NCBI GenBank assembly: GCA_029582165.1
Contig: CM055868.1
Coordinates: forward strand, 21,262,391-21,326,390
Length of the DNA stretch: 64,000 nucleotides
Direction: 5' to 3'
Source: Portulaca oleracea
Lineage: Eukaryota; Streptophyta; Magnoliopsida; Caryophyllales; Portulacaceae
The notes under the pieces are model-generated. The model saw nothing but the letters and a program-made list of their open reading frames with translations. It did no database searches and was not told the DNA's origin. The translations under genes and the position numbers were made by a program. Every line of letters starts with the position of its first letter. Position 1 is the stretch's first letter. Below, piece by piece: positions 13,777 through 53,255 of the stretch.

Positions 13777-13778
13777 TT

Positions 13779-16958: not shown

Positions 16959-16963
16959 AGTCA

Positions 16964-22344: not shown

Positions 22345-22347
22345 GAT

Positions 22348-23970: not shown

Positions 23971-24009
23971 TTGTAAAAACCTGTTGTTGAGTTGCTTCAT
24001 GGGTCAGCT

Positions 24010-26264: not shown

Positions 26265-26421
26265 TAAAGTAACATCGCCTACCAAAGGCATCAAGAACAT
26301 CGCCTACCAAAGGCATAAATAATATCGCCCACCAAAGGCATCAAAACATCGCCTACCAAAGGCATCAAGAACATCGCCCACCAAAGGCATAAATAATATC
26401 GCCTACCAAAGGCATCAAAAT
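26265..26421 (+). repeat. 24-bp tandem array in the reverse LTR
   Basis: Six copies of a 22-26 bp unit share the core ATCGCC(T/C)ACCAAAGGCAT. Alternating higher-order variants (aagaac, aataat) suggest an earlier doubling of a three-unit block. Confidence 0.9.
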
Positions 26422-28349
26422 ACTATCCTATATCAGGGAAGGACGCCCTGATCTCCTGGTCCATAACCCTGCAGGTTGTTACACCTGCACAACAGGTTAT
26501 CCCCCGAAACCCGCTTAACGTTTCCACTTGAATTATTTATACAATTTTCAAACTCAACTCACGACTCTCAAGTCAAACCATCCCAAGTTATCAAAACCAT
26601 TAACAAAACTTCGAATAAAAGACCATCCAATTTTCTCAACTCAAATAAACCAAGATCACAATCGAATCAAAAGATTATCAAAACAGATGGTCGTATTTCC
26701 ACAAAAGTCCCCTTTCGGGATGCAATTCTCAAAATAGATTATAAAACATCTAAACACATTTAAAGAGCATCCCGGTGGGGATTAGAGCATAGACAATTAC
26801 CTGAATAACGTCACAGTACAGCAATAAGGAGAACACACTTGAGCTCACTATTGTCACGCACTAACTTGGGCCTAGAATAAGAATAATTATCTAATCAAAA
26901 CGCGTTCTAACGAAGTTAGTATTAACTAACAACTACCTAACCCATCCCCTAGGAACACTTAGATTCCTATCATTTATGATTTACACTTAACACACTCAAG
27001 GAATTATATAACAAGTTCACACATAAAATTTACTCAACAATTTTCATAAATAAAAGCAAGCAGAGGACAGATTGTAACGTTCACATAAAACGGGTCACAA
27101 CTCGACTTCCCGACATCCTATGAGTCTGGTTCTAGACTTTTCGGAAACCTCGGGATGTCTACTAAAACTTCTATGTTGATGACCAAGCCCATATCTGTCC
27201 CGAAAGACTCTAAAAACACCCATCTTCCTAATTGGTCCAGATCTGATAGGTTCTGGTAAAAAGATTATAACTCGGGTTATACAAATCAAACGTTCGATCC
27301 GTAAAATTCCTATGGTTCCTAACATCTAAGGGAACCTCCAGTTAAAAGGGTTCTGTTAAAGAGTAACTATACCAATCGTGGCAACCCGATCTTTAGACAC
27401 TAACAAAACTGTCCCGTTACCGGTTCTTAATAAATTTGTAATTTCGGTTCTAACTTTTACCAATTGATGTCCGGGTTCTAATTTGGGCTCAAAAACAGTA
27501 ACTAGGGTCTAAGGTATAAAGTCCAACTTAACTTAGGTCCAACAATTAAACTTTTAACATTAACCCAATTTAGAAAACATGGAAACACTTTACTAATTTT
27601 AATCCATCCTAAAATCAAACAAGAAATATAATACTTAAACATGAATTATTTACAAGGTTATAACAGTAAAGCAAGAATTTCAAAGAACAAAAAAAAAAGT
27701 GGTTAAACATGTGGTTTCTTTAATCAAGATTCAAGGAGGTCTTTAGGAAATATAACATAAGGTATAATATGACAAGTAACTACTAATCAAGAAAAAAAAA
27801 CCAACAACCAATTCTTTTACTAACTAAAACAAGAATTCAAGAATCAAGAAAGACTTAAAGAACATGAAATATTTAACAAGAAACCTAATTAGTTTTCAAG
27901 AATCAAGATTTAACAAGAAACGAATTACTAACAAAGATTGAATCTAAATTAAACAACCTAATTTGTTAATCAAGAATTTAACCTAGATGTTACACTTTCC
28001 AATTTCGTGCATATAATAATATAGTGATCTAACCTAATATGATTTATAAGGAATACAAAGAACTATAAAGAAACACCTTTAAACCTAATAACCAACTATT
28101 ACAACTTAATCTAATTACAATTTACAACATAAAATTACATATAACAAATAAACAAATTACACATAACAATAAACAATTTACACATAATTACAACCAAGAA
28201 ATATTTACAAATAATTTTCCTAATTACAAAACTAATCATAAATAAATAATACAATTCAATAATTAATAGAACAATTGAATTTTTGAAATTAAAAGCAGAA
28301 AAGAAAAAGGAAAAAGAAAAGGAAAAATATCAAAAAAAAATCAGAATCA

Positions 28350-28906
28350 GTTAGGGTTTAGGGTTAGGGTTTACGTTTAGGGTTAGGGTAGCTTTCCCGG
28401 CGACTGGGCGGACGGTGGTCGGGGGTGTTGGCGTCGGGGTCGAGGTCGGCGGTTAGGGTGTCGTCGGAGGCAGTTAGGGCGGTGGTTGACGTCGAAACTC
28501 CGAGCGGTGGCAGCAGCGCAGCGTCGGGGGGTTTTCTTCGACTGGGACGGCTCTGGCGACGTTGGGGCGGCAGTGCGAGGGTCGCCGGCGAGGGTGGCGA
28601 CAGCGGCGCTGGTGGACGACGGTGGTGGTGATGACCGGTGGTTGTCTGGGTACGAGTGCGAGGCAGAGGCAGGGGAAAGAAGAGAGGAAAAGAGAGAAAA
28701 GAGGGAGAAAAGGGGAAGAGAAAGGTAGTTGCGGTGGTGTAGGCGATTCCCGGCGGTGGTGGCGGCGGCCGTCTGGTGGCGCGGCGCGGCGGGGGTGGTG
28801 GCGGCTGATGCACAGGGAGAGAGAGAGAGAGAGAGGGAGGGGAAAGCTAGGGTTAGGGTTTTTGATTGTTATTAGGGTTTGAGGGAGAGAGAGAGAGAGT
28901 TTTATA
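28350..28906 (-). promoter_or_regulatory. GC-rich promoter-like block in the reverse LTR
   Basis: On the minus strand the order is TATAAAA (28900-28906), a CT repeat, telo-box motifs (AAACCCTA) at about 28847-28880, then 450 bp of GC-rich sequence with overlapping Pro/Arg-rich frames, and a second telo-box cluster at 28350-28390. This layout resembles a plant core promoter with 5' untranslated region. The open frames are low-complexity and not supported as genes. Confidence 0.5.
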
Positions 28907-29337
28907 CTACCCACTTAATTAGGGCCCAATTAACACTCCTAACCCAACCCAACCAAAACAGTTAAAAACCTGATCTTAGAATTTTAGGAAAAATTAAAAC
29001 ATTATTTAAAACATATAGTAAACACATATTATCACATAATAATATTTATAATAACACAATGATATTAATTCACGAAAAAATACTAATCTACCCTTGTTAG
29101 CCCCTCAATGGTCCTACGAGCTCAAGCGTTAGCATAAATAAACACATCACGAACAACAGTAAATAACGAAGTCAAACCTATTTTATTAACGACGTTACGG
29201 TCAACCTTTTGAATTTTTCGGGGTTTTACATCATTACCTTCTTAAAAGAAGTTTCGTCCTCGAAACTTAAACTCAACACCAACGGTCTGTCAAACGGAAC
29301 TAACGCTGGCGCTAACCAAAAATCTGGGGTTTTACAG

Positions 29338-31440
29338 CATCGTTCAAAAAAACCTTAGCCTTGTTCAACCAAATCATTCTCCTCATGACCAATCCATATC
29401 TACCCCAAAGCTAAAAGGTGTGTTGTGACTAATGTCATCAAAAGGAGAATAGAAGTCAACCCTTGAAGAAAGAGTTTCAAAAAGGAAAAAGGTTTGTTGT
29501 GCCCAATGTCATCAAAAGGAGAATAAGAGTCAACCCATAAAGAAAGGGTTTGAAAAAAGAAAAAAGTGAAAAAAGTGAAAAAAAGTGAAAGCAAAAGAAA
29601 AAAGGTGAAAAAAAGTGAAAAAAAAAGCTGAGATAGATAGCAAAAAAAAAAAAAACAAAAAAGTTGAGAAAAAGAAAAGAAAAAAAAGGAGGAAATGGAG
29701 GAAAGTAAAGAGAAATGAAAGAAGAAAAGAGGATTAGAAAAGAATAAAGAAAAGAGAAGGCGAAAATAAGAGTCAAACACACCTCAGTCTTCTATAACCT
29801 TCACAAACCTTTCATAACCTACATCATCCACACACCTCAGCCTTCTATAACCTTCACAAACCTTTCATCCATCCATAACCTACATATGAACCCTCAAACC
29901 TTCATAACCATCTTTTCGAACCGTTAAGCCTTCCTCGAGGCACTATCCATTAAAGTTGCGCTTAAAGAACTACGACGGGCCTGATTCCACCTTGGATACA
30001 TAGGAAAACCTCTTTGAGGCCCGACCGCTACAAGGAGCATCCTTTGTCCTCAAAATGTTGGTCTTTGAGAGAAAAAAAAGAGAAAAAAATAGGCTAGCCT
30101 GAAAACCCGTCAGGGCAGATTAGGCAAAAGGAGGGTGAGAGAATAAGAGAGGCTAGCCTAAAAACCCGTCAGGGCAGGTTGGGCAAAAGGAGAGGAAACC
30201 CTGGATTCTATCTTTCCTCATCAACAACCCTCCATCTTCCTTTTGCCAGACATGGACATCATCCCATAACCATGTTCCAACCTTTTCCCAAGAGATGATG
30301 TCTTACCCCATTTGGTCATCTCTTCACTCTTTCAGGACACGATCATTCTTGAGTGTCTCCTTATCCCATTCATCAATAAAGTCTCATGTACCATCCCTTT
30401 CCACCCTTTCTTAAGAGATGTTGTCTATCCCATTTGACCATCTCTTCAAGACACGATCATTCTTAAGTGTCTCCCTGTGTCATTCATCAATAAAGTCTCA
30501 TCTGCCATCCCTTTCTCTAGAGATGATGTCTATCCCATTTGACAATCTCTTCTCCTTTCAAGACACGATCATTCTTAAGTGTCTCCACATCCCATTCACC
30601 ATCGTCTACCATCTCTTTCCCCAAACACTTCATAACCGACCCTTTCACCCCATCTCACCCTCTGAGGACTTTTCAGCTCAGTCATTAATGCAAGTATGAG
30701 GCTCTGTTCTTAATGCCCACTCTTAGCACACCTAAGTGTGGCTTACTTCTCAGCAAGAGCAAAAGCCATCTACATCATATCAGCGGCTAATTGACAACCA
30801 CATGATCATGAATAGACTAAAAAACAAGCTACTCTAAATTGGGGGCTCGTGCTACCTTTGTGACATCGTTCAAGACATTTATCGGAGATAGTTTCAAAGA
30901 AGGACTTTTACTCCCTATCCTACAAGGTCCTGCATCTTCAATCCCATAGGCGTACTAATAGTGGTCTCATCAAGAAAGGAAAAAAAAAAAGAGAGAGAGA
31001 GAAAAAAAAAAGAAAAGAAAAAAAAGAAAAAAAAAGAAAAAAAGAAAAAGAAAAAAAGAGAAAAAAAAAGAAAAAAAAGAAAAAGAGGGGCTAACTTGAA
31101 AACCCTTTGGGCAAGTTAGGCAAAAGGAGAGATTGAGACTCACTACTAAGGACGATGCCTCCTCCTATTTTATGGTCCCCGTGCATCATCTCGTCAATCG
31201 ACATCGAAACTGGGGGCTTGCAAATCTCCAAGGTGCTCTCCAAAGCAGGACAGTGTCATCAAGAGTCTACACCAAACCGGGGGCTTGCCATACATCAGCA
31301 TACATTTGCAAGAAATCAAGGTCATCTACGTGTTCATTCAGGAAACGCATCCTTCAGGCTTGTTGTCTCCATTATTGTTCCCTATCTCGTGGATCGAAAC
31401 ATTACTCATCCTAAATTTTTTCTGAAGTTCCCCACGAGTG
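29338..31440 (+). repeat. D internal stretch with short repeats and purine tracts
   Basis: There is no supported gene. It contains a duplicated ~75-bp unit (29415-29565, core AATGTCATCAAAAGGAGAAT), a duplicated ~53-bp unit (29780-29880, core CTTCTATAACCTTCACAAAC), two GGCTAGCCTGAAAACCCGTC units (about 30095 and 30155) with a diverged third at 31089, and long A/G tracts at 29540-29760 and 30980-31085. Confidence 0.7.
30290..30610 (+). repeat. D tandem array 3, ~115-130 bp units
   Basis: Nearly three units share AGAGATGATGTCT, ATCCCATTTG, CCATCTCTTC, ACACGATCATTCTT and AAGTGTCTCC. The last unit is diverged. Confidence 0.8.
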
Positions 31441-32165
31441 GCCTTAATCCTTAGAAAGAATTGTCTTAGGGAGTCATTGTCTTAGGAAAGCATTGTCTTA
31501 GAAAATCATTGTCCATGAAAGTCTTTGTCTAAATATAGAGTCGGGGGTTGTCTGCATGTAGAGTTGCATGTATAGGAGCATAAAGCATGATGTGTCTGTC
31601 CTGTCTAGGCATAATAGGTTTGCATTGGATCCATATGTCACGTCATAGTCACATAGAGTCTGTTTTTCTTGCATAGAGTCAGTTTGTCTTGCATAGAATC
31701 GGTCTGCCATGCATAAGGTCAATAGTTATGCATTGCATAAAGGTATGAAGCATCAAGTGTGAGTCTTGTCCATGAGTCATGTCAAAGTCATAAATAGTTA
31801 GTCAATGGTCATTCATTGCATAAAAGCATCATGTGTGTGTCCTGTCTAAGCATAATAGGTCTGCATTGCTTCTATAAGTCGTGTCAGGGCCTCATTTAGT
31901 CAATCTATCATGCATCAATTCAGTCTGTCATGCATTGAGTCAGTCTGTTGTGCATTGAGTCAGTCTGTCATGCATTGAGTCAATTTGTCTGTCATTTAGT
32001 CAATCTGTCATGCATCAAGTCAGTCTATCTGCGCATTGAGTCAGTCTGTCAGTCTGTTGTGCATTGAGTCGGTCTGTCATGTATCGAGTTAGTCTGTTAG
32101 GCATCAAGTCAGTCTATTGTGTATCAAGTTAGTCTGTTGTATATCGAGTCAATTTGTCATACATA
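31441..32165 (+). repeat. D tandem array 4, ~22 bp units
   Basis: From about 31890 a unit of AGTCAGTCTGTCATGCATTG type repeats about a dozen times with variation. Upstream (31555-31660 and 31795-31880) a ~95-bp longer unit with GTGTCTGTCCTGTCTA and GCATAATAGG is duplicated. It is non-coding. Confidence 0.8.
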
Positions 32166-32929
32166 CAGTCAACGCATGAGTGCATGAATGCTTGTGTCAA
32201 AAAAAAAAGAAAAAAGAAAAAAAAGAAATGCATTGTTTGTGCAAGAGTTTAGTAGACTAGTTGCATGCATACCCGCACATCTGAAAATTAAAAAAAAAAA
32301 AAGAGAAAGAAGAAGAAGCAAGGAAGTGCTACATCGTTGCTCCAAAACGCAACACAGGGGGGGCTGTTCAAGCCCATATGCTATCTCAATCAGACCGGTC
32401 AACATGGTTTCCAGTCACTAAGAGCAAGATTAGAGCAATCTCTAATCTAACTGTTGCTGGACAAGTTAGCATCCAGTCAAGTCATGCATCATCAGCCAGA
32501 TACGAATGGCGCATGTCCGACACGATGGACAGAATCTTCACTTGACTAGTACGGATCAACGACCGGGTAAATTCAAGAATCCATTCCCCGTAGTGAAATT
32601 TTGGTACCTATGCGCCTGAAGCAAAATTTAAGGAAAATCGACAAAGTTTCGGTGAAGTTCCTCAACATTAAATTTGTCATACATACAATCAACGCATGAG
32701 AGCCGCCTGAAGAGCTCGGCGCAATCGCACCAATAAGAGTTACCAACATCGGGAAAATCCGATCTGCCTCGGGAAAATCCGTGGGGCACCACCAACTGCT
32801 TCGGGAAAATCCAGTCAACCTCGGGAAAAACCGGTGGGCATCGTCATAAATCTACCAGACAGGTAATTCTCTATATCTCCAGCCATTGTTCAAAATGATC
32901 TGACATTCTACTTTGGTTTCTGTGCAGGG
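32166..32929 (+). other. D internal non-coding stretch
   Basis: A-rich runs lie at 32199-32225 and 32285-32320. A CGGGAAAATCCG-type repeat (about four copies, 32745-32835) is the only regular structure. No gene is supported. Confidence 0.5.
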
Positions 32930-33823
32930 AGCCATCACTGACACCAGGTCGCCGCTAAAAGGCGCCATTATCATCCATCATCCGGCTGCCAAGTAAAAAA
33001 GCGCCGACAGCATCCATCTTCCGGTCGCCACATAAAAGAGCACCGACGTCATCCATCTACACAACCCAAAACCGAAGGCCCTAAGACTGCGGCCCGGAGA
33101 TTTCCCCAACATTCAGGTAAAAATCTGAACCCATTTGCATTTTTGCGAAAACTAATACTTACTTTTCTGATGATTTTCAGGTTGCCACATAAAAGAGTAT
33201 CATCACCCGGTCGCCGCTGAAAGGGACCATCCATCGTCAGGTTGCCGCTAAAAAGGGACCATCCATCATCCGGTAGCCACATAAAAGAGCACCATCAGCG
33301 ACAGTCGTCCAACGGTTACCACCTAAAGGTCTCCAACGATGTCGTCAGCAACAGTCGTCCGACGGATTCCACCTAAAGGTCTCTAACGATGTTAGCAACA
33401 ACAGTCGTTTAATGGATGCCAATTAAAGGTTTCCAACGACATCCTCAGCATTAGTCGTCCAACGGTTGCCACCTAAAGGTTACCGACGACCTCATCATCA
33501 GCATCTCCAGTCGTTCAACGGTTGCCACCTAAAGGTTTCCGACGACATCATCATCATCATCAACATCTTCAGTCGTCCAACGGTTGCCACCTAAAGGCCT
33601 CCAACGACATCACCAACATCTTCAGTCGTCCAACGGTTGCCACCTAAAGGTTTTCGACGACATCATCATCATCAATATCTTCAATCGTCCAACAATTGCC
33701 ACCTAAAGGCCTCCGACGACATCACCAGCATCTTCAGGCCTCCGGCGACACCATCATCAGCATCAGTCATCTAACGGTTGCCACCTAAAGGTTTCCGATG
33801 ACATCATCGGCATCTCCAATCAT
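32930..33823 (+). repeat. D tandem array 5, related 50-70 bp units
   Basis: In the first part (32940-33300) units share CCGGTCGCC(A/G)C and TAAAAG with GACG/CATCCATC. In the second part (about 33300-33823) about nine units share AACGGTTGCCACCTAAAGGT, TCC(G/A)ACGACATC and a variable CAT trinucleotide run. The array runs directly into the truncated 3' LTR. Confidence 0.85.
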
Positions 33824-35217
33824 CTAGCTGAGACAAAACCCACACGGTTTTTAATCAACAGAGACGGCCCAGAACCAAGACAAGCCCAAGGCGTGCCCCG
33901 GTCCAGGGTACAAAACCCGCGCGGGGTTTCCTTCGCCCAAAACGCGCCGTTTTGCCTTGCCATGTCAGCGATCCCTGCCGAGGGATTATAAAACACGCGC
34001 GGGGTTTAATTTCCGGAATCTGGCGCCAAAATCATCTTGATCATCCTCCCTTGATATTAGCCCCATGTGCTTTGACCTTGGCCTTGACTTGGAACCTACG
34101 TGATTGCATGGCATGATCATGGGGATGTGTCCCCCATGATTTTCCCTCCTAAACCTCACCTTCTCCAACTATAAATACCCCCCCTCCATTCCATTCATTT
34201 TTACCAACTACTCTCATAAACCACCTCTATTATTCTCATTTCATCAATTAATACTCTTCTCATATTAGCTTTCCCCTTACTCTACCAAAGTCATCACTCA
34301 TATACTATCCTACTATCATTCTCACACTCCCCTTCCAATCCTTAAGTCAAGGCAAATTCAAGGATTTCAACCGACGCATTCGGGCTCCTAAATCAAAAGA
34401 AATTCGATTCTTTGTTTTCTTATTGTCATTGTTTAAATCATGTAATTCGTACTTTAATTCCATTACTTGTGCATATTTTGTAAACTAAAACCTCATTTTA
34501 TATTGCATGATGATGAATATAATTTCTTGAAATTAATTAAACTTCTCTCCGCTCTTTTTCATTTTAATGTCGATTTTAGTAGAGTCTGTTTTCTAACAGG
34601 CGAATTCGAGACTTCTTATAATTCTCGAATTGGTAACCTTACCCCCGGGCTTAGAATCGGGTTTCGTAGACCGGAGTTATTTTTATGGTTTGTCGGTTTC
34701 CTTAAATCGGCTGGCGACTCTTAATTCTTTTATAACTCGTTTAATTATTTTAAACATACGGATTTACACCAAAATAGTTTAAAATGGTTTAGTCTTTTCC
34801 ATCCACTAATCCAAGAATAAAACCGAGAGAAAATGGGCCAGAAATTGATAAAACCCTCGCGGGTTTTATCAATTTCAGCCCATGTTCTCTGGCCCAAGGA
34901 AAGGCACAGTCCAGCCCATGGACACTTAAAACCCGCGCGGGTTTTAACAGCCCATGGCGGTCCGTTTGCCCTCTGTTGAGCCTGGATCTGGTATTTGGGC
35001 CAAAACTGAATTATTTTTAAAGTATTTCGGTGTAATTTCGAGTGTTTAAATAAATAAAAATGGATTTATAAATAAATAAAGTTTCATCACCCCGAAAATG
35101 AATTTTCAAAATAAAAATATCCTTATTTAAGGAATAAGCAACCTTAGTCGGCTCCCGATCAGTTAAGTAGCGCATACGAGAACAATTTCCCCGAACGGGA
35201 ATTTTCCGGGTCCTACA
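33824..35217 (+). repeat. D 3' LTR, 5' end missing
   Basis: This matches 20950-22344 of the 5' LTR almost base for base over 1.39 kb. The first ~312 bp of U3 and the preceding purine tract are absent, and array 5 abuts instead. A perfect 22-bp palindrome occupies 34926-34947. TATAAATA is at 34170-34177. The low divergence from the 5' LTR suggests D is among the younger insertions. Confidence 0.92.
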
Positions 35218-35222: not shown

Positions 35223-38200
35223 ATTCTGACCTTAGTGATGTTTCTTGTGTGGATGAGCTTGTTGAGATAGGAATTGACCCGGATTGTGTGACTTCATTAT
35301 GTGACTCTGATGTTTTCAACGGTGAATTGTTGTATGAGTCATTGTTTGCCTCTTATAATGTTCATGAAATAGTAGAGCCTGAGCCACCATCTTCCAAAAC
35401 TCTTGAACTAAAGCCCCTTCCATCTGAGCTTAAGTATGTGTTCCTTGGCCCTAGTGAAACCTACCCGGTTATCATAGCTTCTGACCTAGGTGGGGATCAA
35501 GAGAACAAATTGATTGAGGTTCTTAGGTTAAATAAGGGGGCTTTGGGGTGGACACTTGGAGACATTAGGGGAATCAGTCCATCTATTGTGCAGCATAGGA
35601 TATACTTGGATGACGACAGTGTGGCCCATAGGGATCCTTTGAGGAGGCTTAACCCCCAAATGAAGGAAGTGGTGAAGAAAGAAATTTTGAAGTGGCTAGA
35701 CAATGATATCATATATCCTATTTCCGATAGTAAATGGGTGAGTCCCATACATGTGGTCCCAAAAAACGCGGGGTTAACGGTTGTGGAGAATGAGAGGGGT
35801 GAGTTAGTGTCAACCCGCGTACCATCAGGATGGAGAGTGTGCATTGATTATAGAAAGCTCAATAAGGCCACGAGAAAGGACCATTTCCCCTTACCATTCA
35901 TGGATCAGATGTTAGAGAAGTTGGCGGGGCATGATTACTTTTGTTTTTTAGATGGGTATTCAGGATATACTCAGATTTACATAGCCCCGTGTGATCAAGA
36001 GAAGACTATATTTACAAGCCCATTCGGTACATTTGTATTTCGTAGGATGCCCTTCGGACTTTGTAATGCCCCCGCAACTTTTTAGCGGTGCATGGTGTTT
36101 ATCTTCTCGGACCTAGTTGATGATTGTGTAGAAGTATTCATGGATGACTTTTCAGTATTTGGCACAACCGTTGATGCATATTTGATAAACATGAGTCGAG
36201 TTTTGAGTCGTTGCAAAGAGAAAAATTTGACTTTAAACTGGGAAAAGTACCATTTCATGGTACGAAAGGAGATAATCTTGGGCCACGTGATTTCAAAGGA
36301 TGGAATCGAGGTGGATAAAGTAAACATTGACCTAGTTAGGAACTTGACCCCCCCCCCCATTTGTGTGAAGGAGGTTAGGTCTTTCTTAGGACATGCTGGA
36401 TTCTATCGTCGATTTATTAGGGACTTCAGCAAGATCGCTAAACCTCTATCTGCTTTGTTGGCCAAGGAGGTGTCTTTTGACTTTTCTGATGAATGCTTAA
36501 GGGCCTTTAACACACTTAAAGAAGCCCTTATATCACCTCTTATCCTCAAACCCCCTACTTGGGGAGAACCATTTGAGCTTATGTGCGATGCCTCAGAATT
36601 TGCTATCGGTGTGGTCTTAGGAGAAAGAGTTGATAAAAAGCCAGTTGTGATCCACTATGCGAGTCATACTTTGAATGACGCCCAATTAAATTACACTGTA
36701 ATTGAGAAAGAGTTTCTTGCTGTGGTATATGCTTTTGAGAAGTTTAGGTCTTATCTGCTTGGTGCAAAAGTCATAGTGTATACCGACCATTCGGCCATTC
36801 GATATTTGATGGAGGAAAAGGACTCTAAGCCTAGATTGGTTAGGTGGGTTTTATTACTTCAGGAATTCGATTGTGAGATCCGAGATAGGAAGGGCGCCGA
36901 GAATCTCGTAGCAGACCATCTCTCTAGGATAGTGACTGAGAATGTGAGTGCGACTCCTGTTGATGCTAGTTTTCCGGATGAGCATATCCTCAGTGTGGGA
37001 GTTGAGCCATGGTTTGCTGGCATAGTGAATTTCAAAGTGACTGGGGAAATGCCGGGGGACTAGAACAAGCATGAGAGAGATAAATTCTTCCATATAGTGA
37101 AGAACTTTGTGTGGGATGACCCTTATTTGTTCAAATATTGTCCCGACCAAATCCTTAGAAGATGCATACCCAATGAGTCCATCTTAGATGTTCTTTCATT
37201 TTGCCAAGACCAACCATGTGGGGGGCATTTTCTGGGAAGAAAACGACATACAAAGTATTGCAATGTGGTTTTTTATTGGCCAACCATATTTAGGGATGCT
37301 CATAACTATGCAAAGCGTTGTTTTCAATGTCAAAGCGTAAGGATGATATCTAGGAGAGATATGATGCCTTTACAGCCTCAGATTTTTATAGATGTATTCG
37401 ATGTATGGGGCATAGACTTTATTGGACCATTTCTGAACTCATTTGGGAATGAGTATATTCTCCTAGCGGTAGATTACGTCTCTAAAGGGGTAGAGGCTAT
37501 TGCTTCGAAGAGAAATTATGCAAAAGTAGTGACTAAGTTCCTTCGGGAAAATATTTTCTCTAGGTTTGGGGTGCCTCGGGCAATCATTAGTGATCAAGGG
37601 ACTCATTTCAATAATCGATCTTTCGTAGCTTTGCTTAGGAAATATTCTGTTATGCATAGAATGACCACCGCTTATGGTCAGGCTGAGGTGTCCAATAAGC
37701 AGATTAAGCAAATTCTAGAGAAGACAGTGTCTAAGAGTAAAAAAGACTAGACTGTCAAATTGACTGATGCTTTATGGGCTTATAGGACGGCCTACAAAAC
37801 CCTTATAGAAATGTCTCCATATCGAGTAGTTTTTGGAAAACCGTGCCACTTACCAGTTGAACTTGAGCATAGGGCGTGGTAGGCTTTGAAAGCTCTGAAC
37901 CTAGACCTTTCAATGGCTGTGGAGGTTAGAAAACTTACCTTGCGGGAATTGGACGAATTAAGGAGGGAAGCATATGAAAACGGGAGGTTGAGCAAGGAGC
38001 GATCGAAAGTTTTGCATGATAGAGTTATCTCTAGGAAAACCTTTGTCCCGGGGCAGAAAGTTCTCCTTTATGGCTCACGTTTGCATCTGTTTGCGGGTAA
38101 GCTGAAATCTAGGTGGACCGGACCATTCATTGTGACCACCGTGTTCCCATCGGGAGTAGTTGAGGTTAAAGACCCTACTAATGAATCTGTGTGGAAAGTT

Positions 38201-41411: not shown

Positions 41412-43564
41412 TATTACCCAACTTACTTTGCATATTGCCCCTACCCTCCTCCGGGAGGAGACAAGCAATGATTATAAGCAACCCACCCCCCCCCTCATCT
41501 TTTGCGTTCATTTACTTGAGTTAAATCATGTGGTAGTACATGTGTTGGGGCGGTGTGTATGTGTGTTGGGGATTGGATGGAAAGGCTCTCTGATATGATT
41601 TTGCATACTTGAGATGTTAGATGTTGAGTGTAGCTTCACTAGCTTAGCCATGGTTTGTTGGTTTGGGATGTATGTCATTGTAAGCTTGAGAATCATTTAC
41701 TTGGGTTATGTGGTGGAGGTTGTATGGTTTGCGTTTGATTTGATCATTCGTAGGACCGGGTAGTTGGCGAGTTATTTCACCCTCAATTCCCGTCTCACAT
41801 AATGAGATTCGGGGTTGAGGATAGTCATTGATCATGTATATATTGTAAAAATTTTGAGTTTTCTTTAATTAGTTAGTCCTTAGTTTCTTGTCTTGTATAG
41901 TTTGTTTTTCCTTTATGATCTAGCATGTAAACATTTCACATATAGTATGCCTTCTTTGTTTGTCTCTAACCTATGGTGTTATGTTTATGGATCGCGAATT
42001 GGGTATGTGTTTATTGAAGACCTTCAGGGAACTCTATCTTACCCGTTATTTGATTGTGAATATATTGATGATCCATGTTGCATGCTTGGTTTTGTTTTTG
42101 GGTGGCGAACCCCTTGACTGTGAATGTTGCATATATATTGTTGTTGGAGCCGTGTGGGCTCGGGTCGCCACCATTTTATTTGTTTGTTGCTTGTTTGTGT
42201 GATTTTAGGTTTACTAGCTACCTTTCCTGTGACACCCTTCTTCTCACAATGGGGACATTGTGAAGTTTTGTGTGGGAGTGGGGGGTGATACTTCCATTTG
42301 TCCTGGGTAGATCACCTAGCTTTTGAGTCTTTGTTTTCGTTTTTCGTAGTTTGTGTCTAAAATTTGAAAATTTTTGTGTGAAAAAGGAGAAAAAAGGGAG
42401 TGAAAAACCTTAAAAGTTTTCGTTTTCGTTTTGTTTTTGTTTTTGCTTCGTTTCTTGGATTTTGTTGTCAAAATTGGGAAGTCGTTCTTAATCTTCTTTA
42501 AAGGAAACCGGTTTGAGCATTTTTGACCCTATCTTGGTCGATTGTCATGACTTACCTAATTAGATTCCCTTTATTGAGTGTCTAGCGAGATCCCTGATTC
42601 TTTTCACGTTATGGTTGAAACTGGGAGACCCTGGGTACTCACATTCGAGCTTGTTTTCTAAAAAGAAGGGGGAAAAAAAAGCAAAAGCAAAAAGAAAAGA
42701 AAAGGAAGTGAAGTTCTTAAATAATTGAATTAATTGGTTCGTGTCGGTCGAACGGCATTAACCAACATAAAGTTAGTCGACCTACACGGGACCGGTATTA
42801 GCGGTACGGCGCTGATACCCCTTAAACCTCCTTCTATTATCGCTCGCGACGAAGAGGTGTATGGAAAAGCCTGTGGTTGCAGGGTAAACCCCGTTAATGG
42901 GCTGTTCAACTCCCGAAAAGCTAACCCGACTATAATTAAACTAAATCAAAAATGTTGGAAACCCAACCCAATTAGTAAGAAAGTTAAGTGTTAATAAAGT
43001 GAGGGGCCTTTCCTTGCATCATCTGCGGCCCTCACCAAGCAAAGGACGACCAAATGCGATGGAGGGAAACTCTTTGCTAATTTTGTTTGTTTTTAAATGA
43101 GCTCGGGTGTGAGTTTTTGGGGCCAATCGGAATTAGTTAGAACCCACTAAGCATTACGCACATGGGATTTAGCTTTACATGAGGTGTCGGGAATCGAAAA
43201 CCTTTAAGATTGACAGTTGTTTGAGTTAGGTGTGTTGGAAATGCTCATAACGGTTCCTTTTGGAGGATTAATATCGTTTTCTTGATTACGATAACATGAT
43301 TCTTGAAACGAGCAATTTTATTTTCTTTCTTTTCAAACATGTTTTGTTTTTCACTTTCCCTCTCTCTTTTCTTGGGCTTTCGTGGGTATAGTTGCTATAA
43401 ACCCTCACGAGACCTACCTCGTCCACCCGGGCTACCGGGGGGTTTGAAGGGCTTGATGCATGTGCTAAATGCTTCCGCGATTCGTGCGAAATTGAGTTAA
43501 GGTTTTTAGTTTTTCTTTTTAGTCCTTATCTTTGTTTTTAGTTTGCTCAGGGCGAGCATACCCT
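41412..43564 (+). other. A 3' untranslated region
   Basis: There is no supported gene. It holds the second purine tract with dyad (42245-42288), A/G tracts (42375-42400, 42665-42710), and a block at about 43380-43500 (CACGAGACCTACCTCG, CCCGGGCTACCGGGG and GCTTGATGCATGTGCTAAA) repeated nearly unchanged in B. Its 1.3-kb length from tract 2 to tract 3 is matched in B. Confidence 0.65.
42245..42288 (+). other. Internal polypurine-like tract 2 of A
   Basis: A CACAATGGGGACATTGTG dyad (7-bp arms) is followed by TGTGTGGGAGTGGGGGGTGA. It is nearly identical to tract 1 and to the B copy at 47799-47840 on the other strand. Confidence 0.65.
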
Positions 43565-43577
43565 TGTGTGGGAGTGG
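43565..43577 (+). other. Polypurine tract of A at the 3' LTR
   Basis: TGTGTGGGAGTGG ends directly at the TGTTCGG start of the 3' LTR, the expected position of the plus-strand primer. Confidence 0.8.
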
Positions 43578-44907
43578 TGTTCGGTCTCGTTCCGAACCGA
43601 ATTCTTCTCTTTATTAGGGTGTTTTTACGTGTTCTAATCCCGTGTATTATGTTAGTTATGAGGTTTTCTTAGTTTTATAGGAAAATAAGGTGTTGAGCCA
43701 AAACCGAGCCAAAACAGAGCAAAACATCACAAAGAATGGAGAAGCAGAAGCACTTGGCAGCAAAATGACTCGCCCGAGTCATATCCTGACTCGCCCGTGA
43801 CCACCATCTGGGAAGCCTTGAAGCATGCAAAAATCAACCAAGTATGGAGTGAAGGCCAAAAGGTTGACTCGCCCGAGTCACCTAATGGCTCGGGCGTGAC
43901 CAACTTCTGCAAACAGACATTGAAGCCAAGAAAATGGCTAAGGCAAGGAGCAACCAGAAGGCTGACTCGACCGAGTCACTGGGACAACTCGGTCGAGTCG
44001 TGTATCTGTGCAGCCGAAGAAGATCTACCAAAGGAGGGATCCTCTATTGGCCAGAAGCCTGACTCGCCCAAGTCACCCTGCTTTTCTGCGCATAATCTCC
44101 GGTAAAAATGCTGCGTTTTGTGTAACAACTTTGGCTTGTATATAAACCCTTAGGACGAAATTATCAACAACTTTTAGTTTCAGTATTGTTTACTTTGTTT
44201 TTCAATTGAATTTTACTTCAAGTTATTGCATTTTGCTTTCTCTCGCTTAGGGTTTCTAGTTCCTTGTTCTCCAAGCTCTTATGTTCTTGAGTGTAATCGA
44301 CACTTTCTTCAAGTAATTTCAGCAAAGTTTCTTCTTTATTTACCTTGTGCTTTTGATTTCATTGAGTTTTTCATTAAAAGTTTTTAGGTTAGCCACCAAA
44401 TCACTCATTTTAGTGAAAAGGGAGATTAAGGGCAACAAATCTTACTAGAAGTGAGGATTTGAGGGTCCTTAGTAACTTGATTCACAACTTTCTATTTTGT
44501 TAGGGAAAAGTTGCAAATGAAGATGAAGAATGAAGAATAGAGATTTTGATTAGTAATCAAGGGTATAGACTTGATACTCAACTTGTTATTAGTTAATTAG
44601 TTGCTTGTTAATTGCTTCTTGATTGCTTTTTGATCATTGTGATAGTTTAAGGTGTTATTGAATGTTTGCTTTGCTAGTATTATAAATTTCTTTTGAATCA
44701 ATTGTTAGTAATTACTTGCTTAGTTGTGTTACTTTCTTAATGGTAATGTCTAGTATCATGCTTAAGAATAGTTTTATAGCTGAATTTACATACTTTACTG
44801 CTTTCCGTATCCGAGAACCCTTAACAAGCCGAAAACCTAAACAAGCCTCACACCCATACTCGTGTTCGACATCCCGACTGATAAAACCTAATTTACACAA
44901 CCAAACA
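43578..44907 (+). repeat. A 3' LTR
   Basis: The LTR is 1330 bp. It ends CCAAACA where the 5' LTR has CCGAACA. Dyad sites lie at 43766/43787, 43865/43886, 43963/43985 and 44060. TATATAAA is at 44139-44146. The length equals that of the reassembled inverted LTR to within one base. Confidence 0.93.
43766..44075 (+). promoter_or_regulatory. A U3 dyad array with ~98-bp period
   Basis: Sites are related to TGACTCGCCCGAGTCA (6-bp or longer arms). Pairs are 21, 21 and 22 bp apart, and pairs recur at 99, 98 and 97 bp. The last group is a single site here but a pair 21 bp apart in the 5' LTR (4514 and 4535). The TATA box lies about 65 bp downstream. Confidence 0.65.
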
Positions 44908-44909
44908 AT

Positions 44910-45095
44910 TGTTTAGGTTGTGTAAATTGGGTTTTATCAGTCGGGATACCGAACACGAAGATGGGTTTGAGGCCTGTTTAGGTTTTCAACTTTTTAAGGG
45001 TTCTCGAATACGGAAAGCAGTAAAGTATGTAAATTAAGCTATAAAACTATTCGTAAGCATGATACTAGACATTACCATTAAGAAAGTAACACAAC
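44910..45095 (-). repeat. Inverted LTR of A, part 1
   Basis: This is the reverse complement of the U5 end of the A LTR, joined tail to tail with the 3' LTR at 44908/44909. It is cut at 45095 by element B and continues at 51769. Confidence 0.92.
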
Positions 45096-45587
45096 TGTTC
45101 GGTTGTAATTTTTGTGGTTTTATAAGTTAAGGTTGTCGGTCTACAGGGATGGGTGTTTAGGCTTGATTAAGGGTAATCGGTTCGTGTAAATGAGTTTTTC
45201 TCAAGGCGAAAAGCAATAAATAATGTAAAGGAAGCATTTAAATCTAACCTAGACATGATAATAATAAAGAAAGCAATTAAAAGAAAGCAATTAAAAGAAA
45301 GCACTTAAAGATGAAAGCAATTAAAAGGCATGAATGAAGACAATGAATGAACAATGAAATTGGGAATGAGAAATTATACCTTTGATGACTAATCTTCAAT
45401 AAACCTTCAATCTACACTTGAATTTCCCCCGAACAAACAAGAAATTGTGGTTTGAATTACCAAGAATCCCCCAAATTCTCACTAGTAAGTAGAATTGGAG
45501 TTCCTTGACCCTCCTCCCCACTAAAAAATGGAGTTGATTGTGGCTAACACCATAAAGCTTGGAAAACAAGTCAACAATGGAGATTAG

Positions 45588-45624
<37 letters not shown>

Positions 45625-46510
45625 CTTGTAAAACACTTCAATGGAAACTTGCTTGAATTGAGAAAGCTTGAGAAAGTTTGAATACAAATGCTAGAAATCA
45701 ATGAAAGCTTGAAGAACAATGAAGAACAATTGAAAACTTGAAGAACAATTAAGAGAGATTAAAGCAAATAAAGGAAAGAAATTAAATCTAATTCTACTCC
45801 TAAACTACCTAGGCTAATTGATAATTTAGATTAATACAAGTGGGTATTTATAGAAGAAGGAAAAATACAACCCCAAAACCCTAGAACTATCGCAGCACGC
45901 GCGTCTGCAGACAGTGTGGCTCGGGTGAGCAGAAATTTGGCTCGGGCGAGCCAGCGTTCTGGCTGGTGTTTTTGTTGCTTCAGAACCCTTGCTCGGAAAA
46001 ACAGAAATTTGGATCGGGCGAGCAAGCGTTCTGGGCAGTTTTCCCTGCCGACTTCAAACACGCATAACTTCTTCATCCGAACTCCGTTTTAGGCCCGTAA
46101 GATATCGATGGAAAGCTCTCGGTGTGTACTTTAAGCTCCCAAAATTTCAGAGCTATCGGATTTGTAACGAAGGAGTTATGACCCAAAGGGTGAAGGCACA
46201 CATATTTCAAACCTTTAAGTTTGTACCGTTCCCCTGTTTGCGCCAATCTTGATATGGAATTTCCGACTTCGGTTTCGCCTCGGCTCTCGGCTCGGGTTGA
46301 CTTGGTTTGACTCGGGTCTCGGCTCGGGTTGACTTGGTTTGACTCGGGAAATAGCTTGGGATTCCCTAAAAACCTTCAATTAGGCCCAAACTTCTTCTAA
46401 CTCCTTATTTTCCTACAAAACACCAAATCATTATATCTAATATATAAATAGGGTTAAAAAAGCAAATATACCTTATAAAGAGAATAAATTCGCTCAAACG
46501 AGGCCGAACA
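45096..46510 (-). repeat. B 3' LTR (left copy)
   Basis: The LTR is 1415 bp. On the minus strand it runs from 46510 (TGTTCGGCCTCG) to 45096. Two dyad pairs lie at 45917/45938 and 45989/46010, and the TATA motif at 45845-45852. A GA microsatellite occupies 45593-45621. It has one 21-bp dyad unit more than the right copy. Confidence 0.92.
45917..46025 (-). promoter_or_regulatory. B U3 dyad pairs
   Basis: Sites are related to TGGCTCGGGCGAGCCA. They start at 45917 and 45938 (21 bp apart) and at 45989 and 46010 (21 bp apart), with pairs 72 bp apart. The module shared with TRG and D abuts at 46032-46150, and the TATA box lies on the other side. The order matches TRG and D in transcription direction. 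Confidence 0.6.
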
Positions 46511-48486
46511 CCACACCAACACAAGGGTTTGCTACTTGAGCAAACTAAAAACGAAGAAAAGGACTAAAAAGAAAACTAAAAACCTAACTCACTTTCGCAG
46601 GAATCGCGGATGCATTTAGCACATGCATCAAGCCCTTTAAACCCCCCGGCAGCCCGGGTGGACGAGGTAGGTCTCGTGAGGGTTTATAGCAACTATACCC
46701 ACAAAAGCCCGAGAAAAAGAAAAAAGGGGAGAGAAAAAGAAGTGAAAACCTAAAAACGAAACGAAACAAAAGCAGAGAAGATATTCCCGTCCCCAATCAT
46801 GCACCTAGTTCCCCATCCCGCCTCAACAATCAATTGGAAGAAGTAAGTATAAACAAATTGAGACACGAGGGTTGGAAAACTGCCAATCTTTGAGATTTTG
46901 AACCAAAACACTGCCTGATGAGCAAATCACCTCGTGCATATGTGCAAGTGGGCTCTAGTCGGTCCTTCCTATCCTAAACCAGACAATCAGAGTTGTTCTG
47001 ATGCTCAAGCTCGCGATTATCTATCCTACTTCACTCTTGGTTTTTCTTTTAACCTCTCTTTTCTTTCTTTTTCTTACTTTGCTCTCTTTTCTTTCTTTTT
47101 CTTACTTTGCTCTTTTCTTTTTGTTTTACTTTCTCTTTCTTACCATTATTTTGCTCAACTCTTTTTTTCTTTTTTCTTGCTTCGCTCTTTTCTTTCTTTT
47201 TCAAAACCTACGCTCTTTTATTTCCACTCAATCCGTTTTGTGTCTTTTAGAGCGTTTGTGTCGGGTTTGCATGATTTAAGCACCGGCCTTAAAGGGTTAC
47301 CCTCCCGCGGGTTTCTCCATACGTGAGTCATTGCACTTAAGGGGCATAGGGTGCCGATCCACCCAAACCAACCCATGACGGTAGGCCCGACAATAATTAT
47401 TTAATGCATTAGTTAAGAGCTTAAGCAATTGAACAACTAAAACCGTCTAACTTAGGTAAGAATTCACAGTCAAAGCGTGTAAGAATTGAGGATTCCGCTT
47501 TCCCATTCCATGTAAAGGTCTAATATAGATAATTCATGGCAAAAATCCTTCCCAAGGCCCATCATTATTCATACCGGCCGCTTCCAACTGACTAAATCAG
47601 TCGATTAGACAACTATCTATACAACTGTGAACGGAAACATCCTCAAAAAGAAAAACAACTTTTGGGTTTTTCACAACATTTCTTCCCTTTTTATTTTCTT
47701 TTCACACACAAAATTTTCAATTTTTAGACACAAACTACGAAAAACAAAAACAAAGACTCAAAAACTAGGTGATCTACCCATGACACATGGAAAATAACAC
47801 CCCCCACTCCCACACAAAACACCACAATGTCCCCATTGTGAGAAGGGTGTCACAAGCAAGGTAGAAAACCAAGAAAAACCTATATACAAAACACTTATCA
47901 CATAAAAAGTGGTGGCGACCCGAGCCCATGCGGCTCCAACAACAAATTATCCAACATCACACTTAAGGGGTTCGCCACCCAAAAAGAAAATCAAGCATGC
48001 ATCATGGATCATCGATATATTCACATAAAGAGAGGGTGGAAAGAAGTTACCTCGAAGTCTTCAATCAAGCATATTCAATCCACGATCCAAGGAACATCAC
48101 ACCAAGGTTAGAAATAAACAAGAAAAGCATACTATGTGTGATGGTTCACATGCAAGATCAAAAGGAAAAATAAACTATACAAGACACTAAGGACTAATGA
48201 ACTAAGAAAACAAACTAAAATATTTACAAAACGACTCTTTTTTTTTTCTTTTCTTAGACTCGAATATCGGAATACATACTACCCTCCCACTCCAACACAA
48301 AGAGGTTGTCGTGTCCTCAAAATGGAAACAGAAGTAGGTAAGTAAGCACCCCAAAATAAAAGAAAATGACACACACAAAAAGAAAATAAAATAAAAGAAG
48401 AAAAGAAAGACCAACTCACTAATTATACAAGAAGGGTGAGGAAGGATATTACCTCAAAGGCATCTTATCAAGAAATTCACTCCTTC
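46511..48486 (-). other. B 3' untranslated region
   Basis: This is non-coding. On the minus strand it carries three purine-like tracts: at the LTR border (46511-46523), at 47799-47817 followed by the dyad at 47823-47840, and at 48282-48299. A pyrimidine-rich stretch at 47020-47230 and a block at about 46590-46690 match A (42360-42710 and 43380-43500). The interval that holds the env-like ORF in A is only about 0.5 kb here. Confidence 0.7.
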
Positions 48487-50203
48487 TCACCTCAAGATAT
48501 CGGGCATCATGTTAGAACCATTCAACGCCCGGAGTAACAAATCATGCATCCTCTCATGCATCTCAGAATGGTGGTGGTAAGAGCACACTCGCAATAGCAC
48601 ATAAACAAACATTAGTGCTCTTAACAATTTATCAAATGCCTTAGAAAAGTCATAGAACTGATGAAATTCATGAATATACAAGACTTTTCTAGGCACGGTG
48701 AAAGAAGACATGACAAATGGATCCTCCCGTTGACTCGTAAATGGAGATTGGGTATACAAATCAACGGAAGGAGGCAATACAACACATTTCTGAACATGCT
48801 CATGCGAAGACTTGGATGCAAACAATGGTTCAAACTCAATTTCCATGCAATTTTCATCAATCACAAATTCCAAATCACCACTCTCATCAAATAATCATCA
48901 CAATCGTCAATAGGTGATAAGGAAAACAGGGGGTTAGACCACATCACAACACTCCCAACATCACACACAAGCACATCTTCATCTTCATCAATATCAGACT
49001 CACTAGAAGAACTATCAACATCAAAAGACAAAGGTGCATCATCCAAAGCAACATCAAAAGTGAAAGTGGAAGGTTCAGGGTCATAACTCATCGTGAATGA
49101 CTCATAAAGCATGTCATCATCAAAAGCATCATCATCAACAACCAAGTTCAAACAATCATGATCAATCCCCAAAGAATTATGCTCATCATCACAGGTATGC
49201 ACATCAATGGACTCACATACAAGGGTAGCTAATGCCTCACTAATGCAATGATCCTCAATGAAAGTTAACAAATCGTTATTAAGCACACATTCAATCACAA
49301 CAGATTCAATTTCACTCTCAACAAGATTATGCTCAATTACATCATGGCATTCACTAAACTCAATCTTTTCTTCACATAAAGGCATGGACAATGGTGTGGA
49401 CAATGGTTCATTGTCTAACATGTTTTCATCAATTTCAACATCATCACACACAGAATCAACAAGTTTATCATGCCCACTAGGTGGGGCTAGAGCTAAGGAA
49501 TCACTAAGTAGTCCAAGACATGGTCGGTTATAATAGTCATCATCCTCATCATACACAGAAAAATCAACTTGCATTTTAGGACTAAAAGACGATGAATGAC
49601 CTACTTCAACATTCGAATCAACCATTTGTGAAGACGGAGTTTCTACCCTATGATTACTCTCATGGACAAATTCACGCATATACTCATTCATGTTCACACA
49701 TAATTTTTCTACTTCCGCCTCGAAGGAAGCCACTGTAGCTTGCAAACAAGAAATTGAACTATGATACGGCGAATCACACAAGGAGCACACGGAAGGAGAC
49801 TCATCGGCACTTTGGGAAAGTTCATACAGCTTTTCCACATATTCCCATTATAAGAGTGATCATCAACATACACTGGTATTCACATGATTGTTCGGGCCGT
49901 CCCAAAGGGTGGTGCATAAGGAGGTTGGAAGCTAGGACTAACATTTTGTTGTTCAAACTCAAAGGAATCCCTAGACAACCATTCAAGTAACTCCCATGCT
50001 TTTTCTTCACCTAAACAAGAAAACCCGTAATAATCTAAAAGGTTTCGGGTCTCATCATTCACACCCTCACTAACAATTCCCAACAAATTCAATGTATCAT
50101 AAAAAATGTCATACAATTCACATTGAGCACGATAATCATGTAATCTAGCAAAATACCTCCAAAATATTTCATGCTCAAATTGAGGGAATTGGGGACTATC
50201 CAT
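48487..50203 (-). pseudogene. B gag-like and acidic reading region
   Basis: Three consecutive frames are present. The first (50203-49880) reads MDSPQFPQFEHEIFWRYFAR and YDIFYDTLNLLGIVSEGV, resembling a shortened Athila gag capsid. The second (49838-48861, 325 codons) has a CCHC-like knuckle CSLCDSPYHSSISC at about 49787-49746, then a long Asp/Glu/Ser-rich segment. A third frame (48873-48487) overlaps its end. Frame changes between them may be lesions. No protease or RT follows. The function of the acidic part is unknown to me. Confidence 0.55.
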
Positions 50204-50362
50204 AACTCTCTTTTTTTTCTATTTTTCTATTTTTCTTTTTTTCTTTTTTTTCTCACTTTTTTCGATATTCAATTTTTTTTCGCTACATTTTTCTAGCATA
50301 ATCGAGAAAAGCAATAAACTATGTACACACAAACCAATAGCCTAATCTACCAAATAACGCCA

Positions 50363-50380
50363 TCCCCGGCAACGGCGCCA
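50363..50380 (-). other. Primer-binding site of B (tRNA-Asp)
   Basis: This is the reverse complement of TGGCGCCGTTGCCGGGGA, one base from the LTR end at 50382. The site and the spacer base are the same as in A. Confidence 0.93.
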
Positions 50381-50381
50381 T

Positions 50382-51763
50382 TGTTCGGTTGTAATTTTTG
50401 TGGTTTTATAAGTTAAGGTTGTCGGTCCACAGGGATGGGTGTTTAGGCTTGATTAAGGGTAATCGGTTCGTGTAAATGAGTTTTTCTCAAGGCGAAAAGC
50501 AATAAATAATGTAAAGGAAGCATTTAAATCTAACCTAGACATGATAATAATAAAGAAAACAATTAAAAGAAAGCAATAAAGAAAGCACTTAAAGATGAAA
50601 GTAATTAAAAGGCATGAATGAAGACAATGAATGAACAATGAAATTGGGAATGAGAAATTATACCTTTGATGACTAATCTTCAATAAACCTTCAATCTACA
50701 CTTGAATTTCCCCCGAACAAACAAGAAATTGTGGTTTGGATTACCAAGAATCCCCCAAATTCTCACTAGTAAGTAGAATTGGAGTTCCTTGACCCTCCTC
50801 CCCACTAAAAATGGAGTTGATTGTGGCTAACACTATAAAGCTTGGAAAACAAGTCAACAATGGAGATTAGAGAGGAGAGAGAGAGAGAGAGAGAAAAAAA
50901 ACTTGTAAAACACTTCAATGGAAACTTGCTTGAATTGAGAAAGCTTGAGAAAGTTTGAATTCAAATGCTAGAAATCAATAAAATCTTGAAGAACAATGAA
51001 GAACAATTGAAAACTTGAAGAACAATTAAGAGAGATTAAAGCAAATAAAGGAAAGCAATTAAATCTAATTCTACTCCTAAACTACCTAGGCTAATTGATA
51101 ATTTAGATTAATACAAGTGGGTATTTATAGAAGAAGGAAAAATACAACCCCAAAACCCTAGAACAATCGCAGCACGCGCGTCTGCAGACAGTGTGGCTCG
51201 GGCGAGCCAGCGTTCTGGCTGGTGTTTTTGTTGCTCCAGAACCCTTGCTCGGAAAAACAGAAATTTGGATCGGGCGAGCAAGCGTTCTGGGCAGTTTTCC
51301 CTGCCGACTTCAAACACGCATAACTTCTTCATCCGAACTCCGTTTTAGGCCCGTAAGATATCGATGGAAAGCTCTCGGTGTGTACTTTAAGCTCCCAAAA
51401 TTTCAGAGCTATCGGATTTGTAACGAAGGAGTTATGACCCAAAGGGTGAAGGCACACGTATTTCAAACCTTTAAGTTTGTACCGTTCCTCTGCTTCGCCA
51501 ATCTTGATATGGAATTTCCGACTTCGGTTTCGCCTCGGCTCGGGTTGACTTGGTTTGACTCGGGTCTCGGCTCGGGTTGACTTGGTTTGACTCGGGAAAT
51601 AGCTCGGGATTCCCTAAAAACCTTCAATTAGGCCCAAACTTCTTCTAACTCCTTATTTTCCTACAAAACACCAAATCATTATATCTAATATATAAATAGG
51701 GGTTAAAACAAGCAAATATACCTTATAAAAGAGAAGAAATTCGGCTCGAAAAGAGGCCGAACA
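50382..51763 (-). repeat. B 5' LTR (right copy)
   Basis: The LTR is 1382 bp. It is very similar to the left copy, differing mainly in a shorter GA run, loss of one 21-bp dyad unit near 51195, and one fewer short GGCTCGG-type repeat near 51535. The close match suggests a fairly recent insertion. Confidence 0.92.
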
Positions 51764-51768
51764 ACAAC

Positions 51769-52911
51769 TAAGCAAGTAAATACTAACAATTGATTCAAAA
51801 GAAATCTATCATACTAGCAAAGCAAACATTCAATAACACCTTAAACTATCACAATGATAAAAAAGCAATCAAGAAGCAATTAACAACCAACTAATTAACT
51901 AATAACAAGTTGAGTATCAAGTCGATACCCTTGATGACTAATCAAAATCTCTATTCTTCATTCTTCATCATCATTTGCAACTTTCCCCGAACAAAATAGA
52001 AAGTTGTAAATCAAGTTACTAAGGACCCTCAAATCCTCACTTCTAGTAAGATTTGTTTCCTTTAATCCCCCTTTCACTAAAATGAGTGATTTGGTGGCTA
52101 ACCTAAAAACTTTTAATGACAAACTCAATGAAATCAAAAGTATAAGGTAAATGAAGAAGAAACTTTGCTGAAATTACTTGAAGAAAGTGTTGATTACACT
52201 CAAGAACATAAGAGCTTGGAGAACAAGGAACTAGAAACCCTAAGATAGAGAAAGCAAAATGCAATAACTTGAAGTAAAATTCAATTGAAAAACAAAGTAA
52301 ACAATACTAAAACTAAAAGTTGCTGATAATTTCGCCTTAAGGGTTTATATACAAGCCAAAGTTGTTACACAAAACGCAACATTTTAACTGGAGATTATGC
52401 ACAGAAAAGCAGGGTGACTCGGGCGAGTCAGGCTTATGGCCAATAGAGGATCCCTCCTTTGGTAGATCTTCTTCGGCTGCACAGATACACGACTCGACCG
52501 AGTTGTCCCAGTGACTCGGTCGAGTCAGCCTTCTGGTTGCTCCTTGCCTTAGCCATTTTCTTGGCTTCAATCTCGGTTTGCAGAAGTTGGTCACGCCCGA
52601 GCCATTAGGTCACTCGGGTGAGTCAACCTTCTGGCCTTCACTCCACACTTGGTTGATTTTTGTATGCTTCAAGGCTCCCAGATGGTGGTCACGGGCGAGT
52701 CAGGATATGACTCGGGCGAGTCATTTTGTTGCCCAGTGCTTCTGCTTCTCCATTCTTTGTGATGTTTTGCTCCGTTTTGGCTCGGTTTTGGCTCAACACC
52801 TTATTTTCCTATAAAACTAAGAAAACCTCATAACTAACATAACACACGGGGTTAGAACACGTAAAAACACCCTAAGAAAGAGAAGAATTCGGCTCGGAAT
52901 GAGACCGAACA
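51769..52911 (-). repeat. Inverted LTR of A, part 2
   Basis: This continues part 1 after element B. It ends CCGAACA, the reverse complement of the LTR start, directly before TSD attat at 52912. It has the same dyad layout as the 3' LTR: 52415, 52490/52512, 52589/52610 and 52687/52708. Parts 1 and 2 sum to 1329 bp. Confidence 0.93.
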
Positions 52912-52916
52912 ATTAT

Positions 52917-53255
52917 GGAGGGAGTGCCACCTTCACCATTGCAGATTTAAGACCCTATTTTCCAGAGCATCAGGACCTTCCAAGTTTAAGGATAAACTTT
53001 CCTCAACCTGGGGAGGATGATGGAGACCATCCAGCAAGTCTAGCAGCAGATCAAGCATCACCAACAGCAGTAGACTAGGAGTATGGAGATGATTCAGCAA
53101 CAGCAGCAGCTCGAGCAGCTTCTACATCATCTTCATCACCCAAGGAGGCTACACCAGCAACTTCAACACCAACATTGTCAGAAGTAAGCCTTGCCGTGCC
53201 AAACTCAGCAGCTGTTGGAGCAATTCCAACAGAAACAGCAGGCTTCCATCCTTAG
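52917..53255 (+). pseudogene. int: G integrase C-terminus, resumed
   Basis: The frame of the G integrase continues with GGSATFTIADLRPYF, then SLRINFPQPGEDDGDHP, as in CRM/Reina-like chromoviruses. A TAG at 53076-53078 interrupts it. The same frame stays open to about 53255 with an Ala/Ser/Thr-rich tail. Confidence 0.85.

Follow-up and report, generated by a model that had tools for sequence, protein, structure and literature searches.

How does a retrotransposon come to carry a third long terminal repeat (LTR), inverted and joined tail to tail to its own 3' LTR, so that both outer ends of the block are U3 ends? This question is raised by a locus of Portulaca oleracea (assembly GCA_029582165.1, contig CM055868.1, positions 21,262,391 to 21,326,390 of the forward strand). 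The whole stretch of 64,000 nucleotides, hereafter the window, contains nested plant LTR retrotransposons, and all coordinates below count from its first base. For this one locus, our analysis suggests that a retrotransposon (element A) and the inverted LTR probably entered the genome together, joined U5 to U5 and integrated via two U3 ends.

Structure of element A and its nested insertions

Element A starts with a 5' LTR (4284-5382, forward strand), followed on the same strand by a one-base spacer, A (5383), and the primer binding site TGGCGCCGTTGCCGGGG (5384-5400), which we take to be of the tRNA-Asp type. Scanning the window with ARAGORN gave no tRNA gene. The gag ORF (5702-6247, forward; Pfam Retrotrans_gag, 1.3e-13), for which one relative was found among ten candidates, has its last 40 bases inside the nested element N1. 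Three further forward-strand ORFs for reverse transcriptase (RT), RNase H and integrase (35249-36082, 36092-37060 and 37097-37747; Pfam RVT_1, RT_RNaseH, Integrase_H2C2 and rve) begin right after the nested element N2, and their position and strand suggest that they belong to A. The integrase ORF is separated by around 5.8 kb, containing two ORFs without a Pfam match, from the 3' LTR (43578-44907, forward), which ends in CCAAACA and is preceded by GGGAGTGG (43570-43577, forward), likely the end of the polypurine tract. With gag, RT, RNase H and integrase in this order between LTRs of the form TG...CA, A is a Ty3/gypsy element, the pol ORFs being assigned to it by position and strand. Membership of a non-chromovirus, Athila-like lineage is judged by a tRNA-Asp primer site, the lack of a chromodomain, a long region after the integrase and RT phylogeny; according to the available part of PMC6317226, tRNA-Asp primers are among those used by non-chromoviruses.

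The 5' LTR is around 230 bp shorter than the 3' LTR owing to a deletion that is private to it among the three LTRs. The shortfall (4284-5382 against 43578-44907) lies where TGACTCGCCCGAGTCA-like repeats are abundant.

Other elements, including N1, N2 and B, have inserted into this block. N1 (6208-18818), which interrupts the gag ORF inside A, has its own LTRs, a duplication AAAAC and the primer site TGGTATCAGAGCC, and contains a further LTR pair (12855-13776 and 16070-16958). Its LTRs differ at 46 of 781 positions (5.9%), by which measure N1 would be about as old as A, whose own LTR pair shows 76/1099 differences untrimmed and 54/1000 trimmed. N2 (20950-35217), also nested inside A, has LTRs (20950-22344 and 33824-35217) that are 96.5% identical (46/1393 differences) and is, judged by this divergence, younger than A; many diverged repeats are found in its interior (around 29600-33800). 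Element B (45096-51763, reverse strand; LTRs 45096-46510 and 50382-51763) lies within the inverted LTR, is flanked by its own 5-bp duplication ACAAC (45091-45095 and 51764-51768) and, with 24/1377 differences between its LTRs, is by the same measure younger than both A and the inverted LTR. The primer site and the LTR ends are common to A and B, as is part of the 3' internal region (80% between 47644-48229 and 41843-42433). Its internal region is only around 3.9 kb long and its longest listed ORF has no Pfam match; B is probably a non-autonomous relative of A. The borders of four nested LTR pairs were inspected; B and N1 had a clear 5-bp duplication, while N2 and the LTR pair inside N1 showed none at the borders used.

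The tail-to-tail junction

The inverted LTR belongs to the same family as A and is split by B into a U5-side piece (44910-45095, reverse) and a U3-side piece (51769-52911, reverse), the latter ending in ACCGAACA. That it is real is evident from both pieces: identity is 95.8% between 43578-44727 and the reversed 52911-51764, and 92.6% between 44722-45096 and its reverse complement. When the 3' LTR is aligned with the two pieces joined, as the earlier sequence-only reading of this DNA had advised, 59 of 1330 positions differ. The 3' LTR and the inverted LTR (43578-52911) form a palindrome with arms of around 1.3 kb. Until B inserted, read-through RNA could have folded back on itself, and the resulting LTR hairpin may have given rise to silencing RNAs for the family.

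At the junction, 44901-44917 reads CCAAACA-AT-TGTTTAGG. The centre of symmetry lies between 44908 and 44909, exactly where the sequence-only reading had placed it. That reading had also described the end CCAAACA, which is correct, followed by a spacer AATT; the latter included one terminal base from each LTR, the final A of the first and the initial T of the second, and the spacer is only AT (44908-44909). The same reading's observation that a single A separates the LTR from the primer site holds in both A (5383) and B, each time before the primer site TGGCGCCGTTGCC. The AT between the two LTRs thus corresponds to two U5 ends that each contribute a single spacer base. Since the inverted repeat is longer than 1.3 kb and its ends are exact to the base, and since the frequencies of ATTAT (the outer target duplication, see below) and AT in the window are 0.0016 and 0.078, respectively, the arrangement is not due to chance.

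Long palindromes are difficult to sequence and assemble, and the junction falls at an exact repeat end, as would also be the case if two repeats had been falsely joined in inverted orientation or if a read had turned back on itself. Such an artefact is nevertheless very unlikely here: at the 59 of 1330 aligned positions at which the arms differ, each arm has private differences, B is present in one arm only, and the two outer flanks share a 5-bp duplication and join into a single open frame, an outcome not expected of a false join.

A single target site in an older retrotransposon gene

Both outer ends of the block are U3 ends (TGTTCGG), each abutting a copy of ATTAT (4279-4283 on the left and 52912-52916 on the right) that agree at five of five positions. 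The block had been described from the sequence alone as bounded by two U3 ends and a target duplication ATTAT, and our results add to this match a reading frame that runs across the site. The left flank (3738-4283, forward) encodes the integrase C-terminus of an older retrotransposon, with a Pfam SH3_Tf2-1 match (5.8e-14) at residues 113-159 of the ORF 3804-4340, and stays open for 182 codons up to 4283, ending with ...NAYKLDLSKYY in the first copy of the duplication. Past the second copy, the right flank (52917-53075, forward) continues in frame with GGSATFTIADLRPYF... for 53 codons to a stop at 53076. When one ATTAT is dropped, the 60 + 60 joined bases form an unbroken frame.

Further evidence is given by relatives of the left flank, of which 469 fell below the threshold; among the best 120 of these, identity reaches 63% and the named relatives seen belong to flowering plants. 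Among these best 120, 72 contain the motif that spans the join, with spacing identical to that of the window in 69 of the 72 and one residue more in the other three. For the remaining 48 of the 120 the motif had no match, and in a sample of 12 several stop before it or differ there. Since the flanks minus one ATTAT give an open frame with the spacing of the relatives, 4284-52911 occupies one clean 5-bp site.

Does the inverted LTR have a target site of its own? The sequence-only reading had held that such a site would speak against a joint insertion. At the borders of the inverted LTR, ACAAT on the left faces ATTAT on the right, so that a duplication of 4-6 bp proper to it is absent and only AT (2 bp) fits. 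This bears on the possibility of two independent insertions, i.e. that A inserted normally with ATTAT and that another member of its family subsequently entered the right ATTAT copy in reverse orientation and was then reduced to a solo LTR or, as a variant, that A inserted within the left copy of the inverted element's duplication. The second duplication would then be either the 2-bp AT or 5 bp minus 3 bp lost. If AT is taken as the duplication, ACA-AT-[inverted LTR]-ATTAT-GGAGG collapses exactly to ACA-ATTAT-GGAGG; moreover, nested insertions are frequent in the window, and an antisense self-nested insertion has been reported for the plant element EVD (PMC11624286, as far as its available text goes). 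Against this, the scenario requires a 2-bp duplication, and in the accessible part of a survey of 13,566 plant elements duplications were of 5 bp in 93.4%, 4 bp in 6.2% and 6 bp in 0.4%, and of 4-6 bp only (PMC6317226), a range that may be limited by scoring only elements whose duplications were found by one program. It also requires an element of the same family, in reverse orientation, to hit a 5-bp target, the letters AT to arise by chance (frequency 0.078), and the partner to have split from the sequence of A by little above zero before the insertion of A. We therefore consider two independent insertions unlikely.

Relative ages of the three LTRs

The three LTRs have accumulated similar numbers of private differences, i.e. 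30 in the 5' LTR, 21 in the 3' LTR and 24 in the inverted LTR per 1000 three-way columns (p = 0.43 for equality). This count drops offsets 170-500 of the 3' LTR, where the 5' LTR with its loss of around 230 bp aligns poorly, and the result of equal ages depends on dropping them: with the stretch kept, the private counts are 49, 23 and 26 of 1100. A faster-changing 5' LTR, which the latter counts might suggest, was rejected, since most of the excess lies within the misaligned stretch around the deletion. Compared with the average of the 5' and 3' LTRs, no excess is seen in the inverted LTR (-1.5 +/- 6.1 per 1000); when a split earlier by 10 per 1000 was simulated, 5% of runs gave so low a value. 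On the divergence of their sequences, the three LTRs would be as expected if born together.

The comparison of the arms is also relevant to a rearrangement after integration, whereby inversion, gene conversion or templated repair would have put an inverted LTR to the right of a normal A. Palindromic arms favour recombination in general, and the arms differ at a slightly lower rate towards U3 (46/1143) than towards U5 (13/187), a contrast (p = 0.08) that gives a weak hint of gene conversion between them. To produce the observed structure, however, repair would have to halt exactly at the U3 end next to ATTAT and at the U5 end plus one base, and the joint contains no host or internal sequence. 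A rearrangement is thus very unlikely to be the origin of the inverted LTR.

Origin of the inverted LTR

Taken together, the exact ends, the 5-bp duplication in an open frame and the similar ages of the LTRs make a single U5-U5 integration the best fit. According to this explanation, the linear cDNA of A and a partner DNA from its family (a full cDNA or a fragment of LTR size) would have been ligated at their U5 ends during a single cycle of retrotransposition. The joined molecule would carry a U3 end on each outer side, and integrase would have inserted it via both U3 ends into the integrase gene of the older retrotransposon, giving rise to the 5-bp duplication. In the case of a full-length partner, recombination between its two LTRs would later have removed its interior. 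The anatomy of the block, its exact ends, its clean target site and the similar divergence of the LTRs are observed directly; from them we infer that joining preceded integration, that integrase used two U3 ends, and what became of the partner. No published integration through two U3 ends in cells was found in the literature searched, outside of which most subscription journals lie.

The sequence-only reading had already suggested one integration of two joined U5 ends and, in this core, agrees with our best fit; two of its details went further than the letters do. The first was that the ends were joined unprocessed. Unprocessed ends with one spacer base each and the primer tRNA fully removed would indeed give the AT centre, and ends processed by two bases would give it equally, because the 5'-AT overhang left by such processing is self-complementary. 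The second was the collapse of a complete second copy to a solo LTR. The partner is now only an LTR, and an LTR-sized fragment fits equally well; since a new cDNA carries two identical LTRs, a full partner and a fragment look alike at this locus.

With regard to the processed alternative, it is tempting to speculate that the joint is the product of sticky-end ligation. In a family with a single spacer A, a U5 end processed by two bases would bear a self-complementary 5'-AT overhang, of which one base would stem from the end of the tRNA primer and the other from the spacer, and two such ends could pair and be ligated to exactly ACA-AT-TGT. That the joint arose in this way, that U3-ended dimers are still accepted by integrase and inserted as natural LTR palindromes, and that this recurs in such families, is a tentative proposal, which we hold to be possible rather than probable.

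Comparison with known multi-LTR structures

Insertions with three LTRs and one outer duplication are already known in tandem form (PMC1950507 and PMC11899658, in their accessible parts). Like the elements in the available text of Sabot and Schulman 2007 (PMC1950507), the present block has three LTRs and one outer 5-bp duplication and is best explained by a single integration of aberrant cDNA. Judged by the features of that type of insertion, a duplication of normal length surrounds the whole block (ATTAT, 5/5, in an open frame), and the outermost LTRs are of equal age with the trimmed counts of 30/21/24, as distinct from the untrimmed 49/23/26 of 1100. Close similarity of the outer LTRs is likewise a shared feature, the private counts of the outer LTRs here being 30 and 24 of 1000. 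An internal LTR common to two complete cores is absent here, the third LTR being inverted and solo; in the part of PMC1950507 accessible, by contrast, two elements share the middle LTR and no LTR is described as inverted, and here both outer ends are U3.

Similarly, tandem LTR-retrotransposon arrays in rice and other plants are multi-LTR structures with outer duplications, for which a single insertion was suggested and illegitimate recombination was also considered (PMC11899658, available text). These arrays alternate LTRs and internal regions and, in that text, "inverted" appears nowhere but among the references, in contrast to the inverted third LTR described here. The literature searched, with most subscription journals outside it, yielded no published insertion joined U5 to U5 and none whose third LTR is inverted and whose two outer ends are U3.

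The union of LTR ends by end joining is shared with retroviral two-LTR circles; according to the accessible part of PMC1905944, 52-58% of HIV-1 circle junctions match the expectation from the DNA ends. Those circles join U5 to U3 and are deemed dead-end (PMC1905944), whereas the present junction is U5-U5 and integrated. When viral contigs were searched, the family's U5-plus-primer-site pattern had no matches. The tail-to-tail junction pattern had one (L001:10699-10720), with around one expected by chance on a rough estimate, and this match is probably due to chance.

Implications for silencing and genome surveys

Work on EVD in Arabidopsis has proposed that LTRs paired head to head or tail to tail may produce hairpin RNA that starts silencing (PMC11624286, available text). 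The read-pair search in that text reported no close LTR pair in opposite orientation and one antisense self-nested insertion, and joining before integration is not discussed in it; the locus described here has an opposed pair, and joining before integration is what we propose for it. If the proposed origin is true, the locus would be a genomic fossil of an integrase reaction using two U3 ends and would record the state of the U5 ends when they were joined. It would also offer a concrete route to LTR palindromes, the proposed triggers of silencing (PMC11624286, as above). For other plant genomes, the locus would then provide a rule for scanning, namely to look for inverted LTR pairs centred on CA-(spacer)(its complement)-TG and enclosed by a single 5-bp duplication. 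Should the sticky-end proposal be true as well, families with a spacer A should repeatedly leave tail-to-tail insertions, and each of these would be a ready-made hairpin source silencing its own family.
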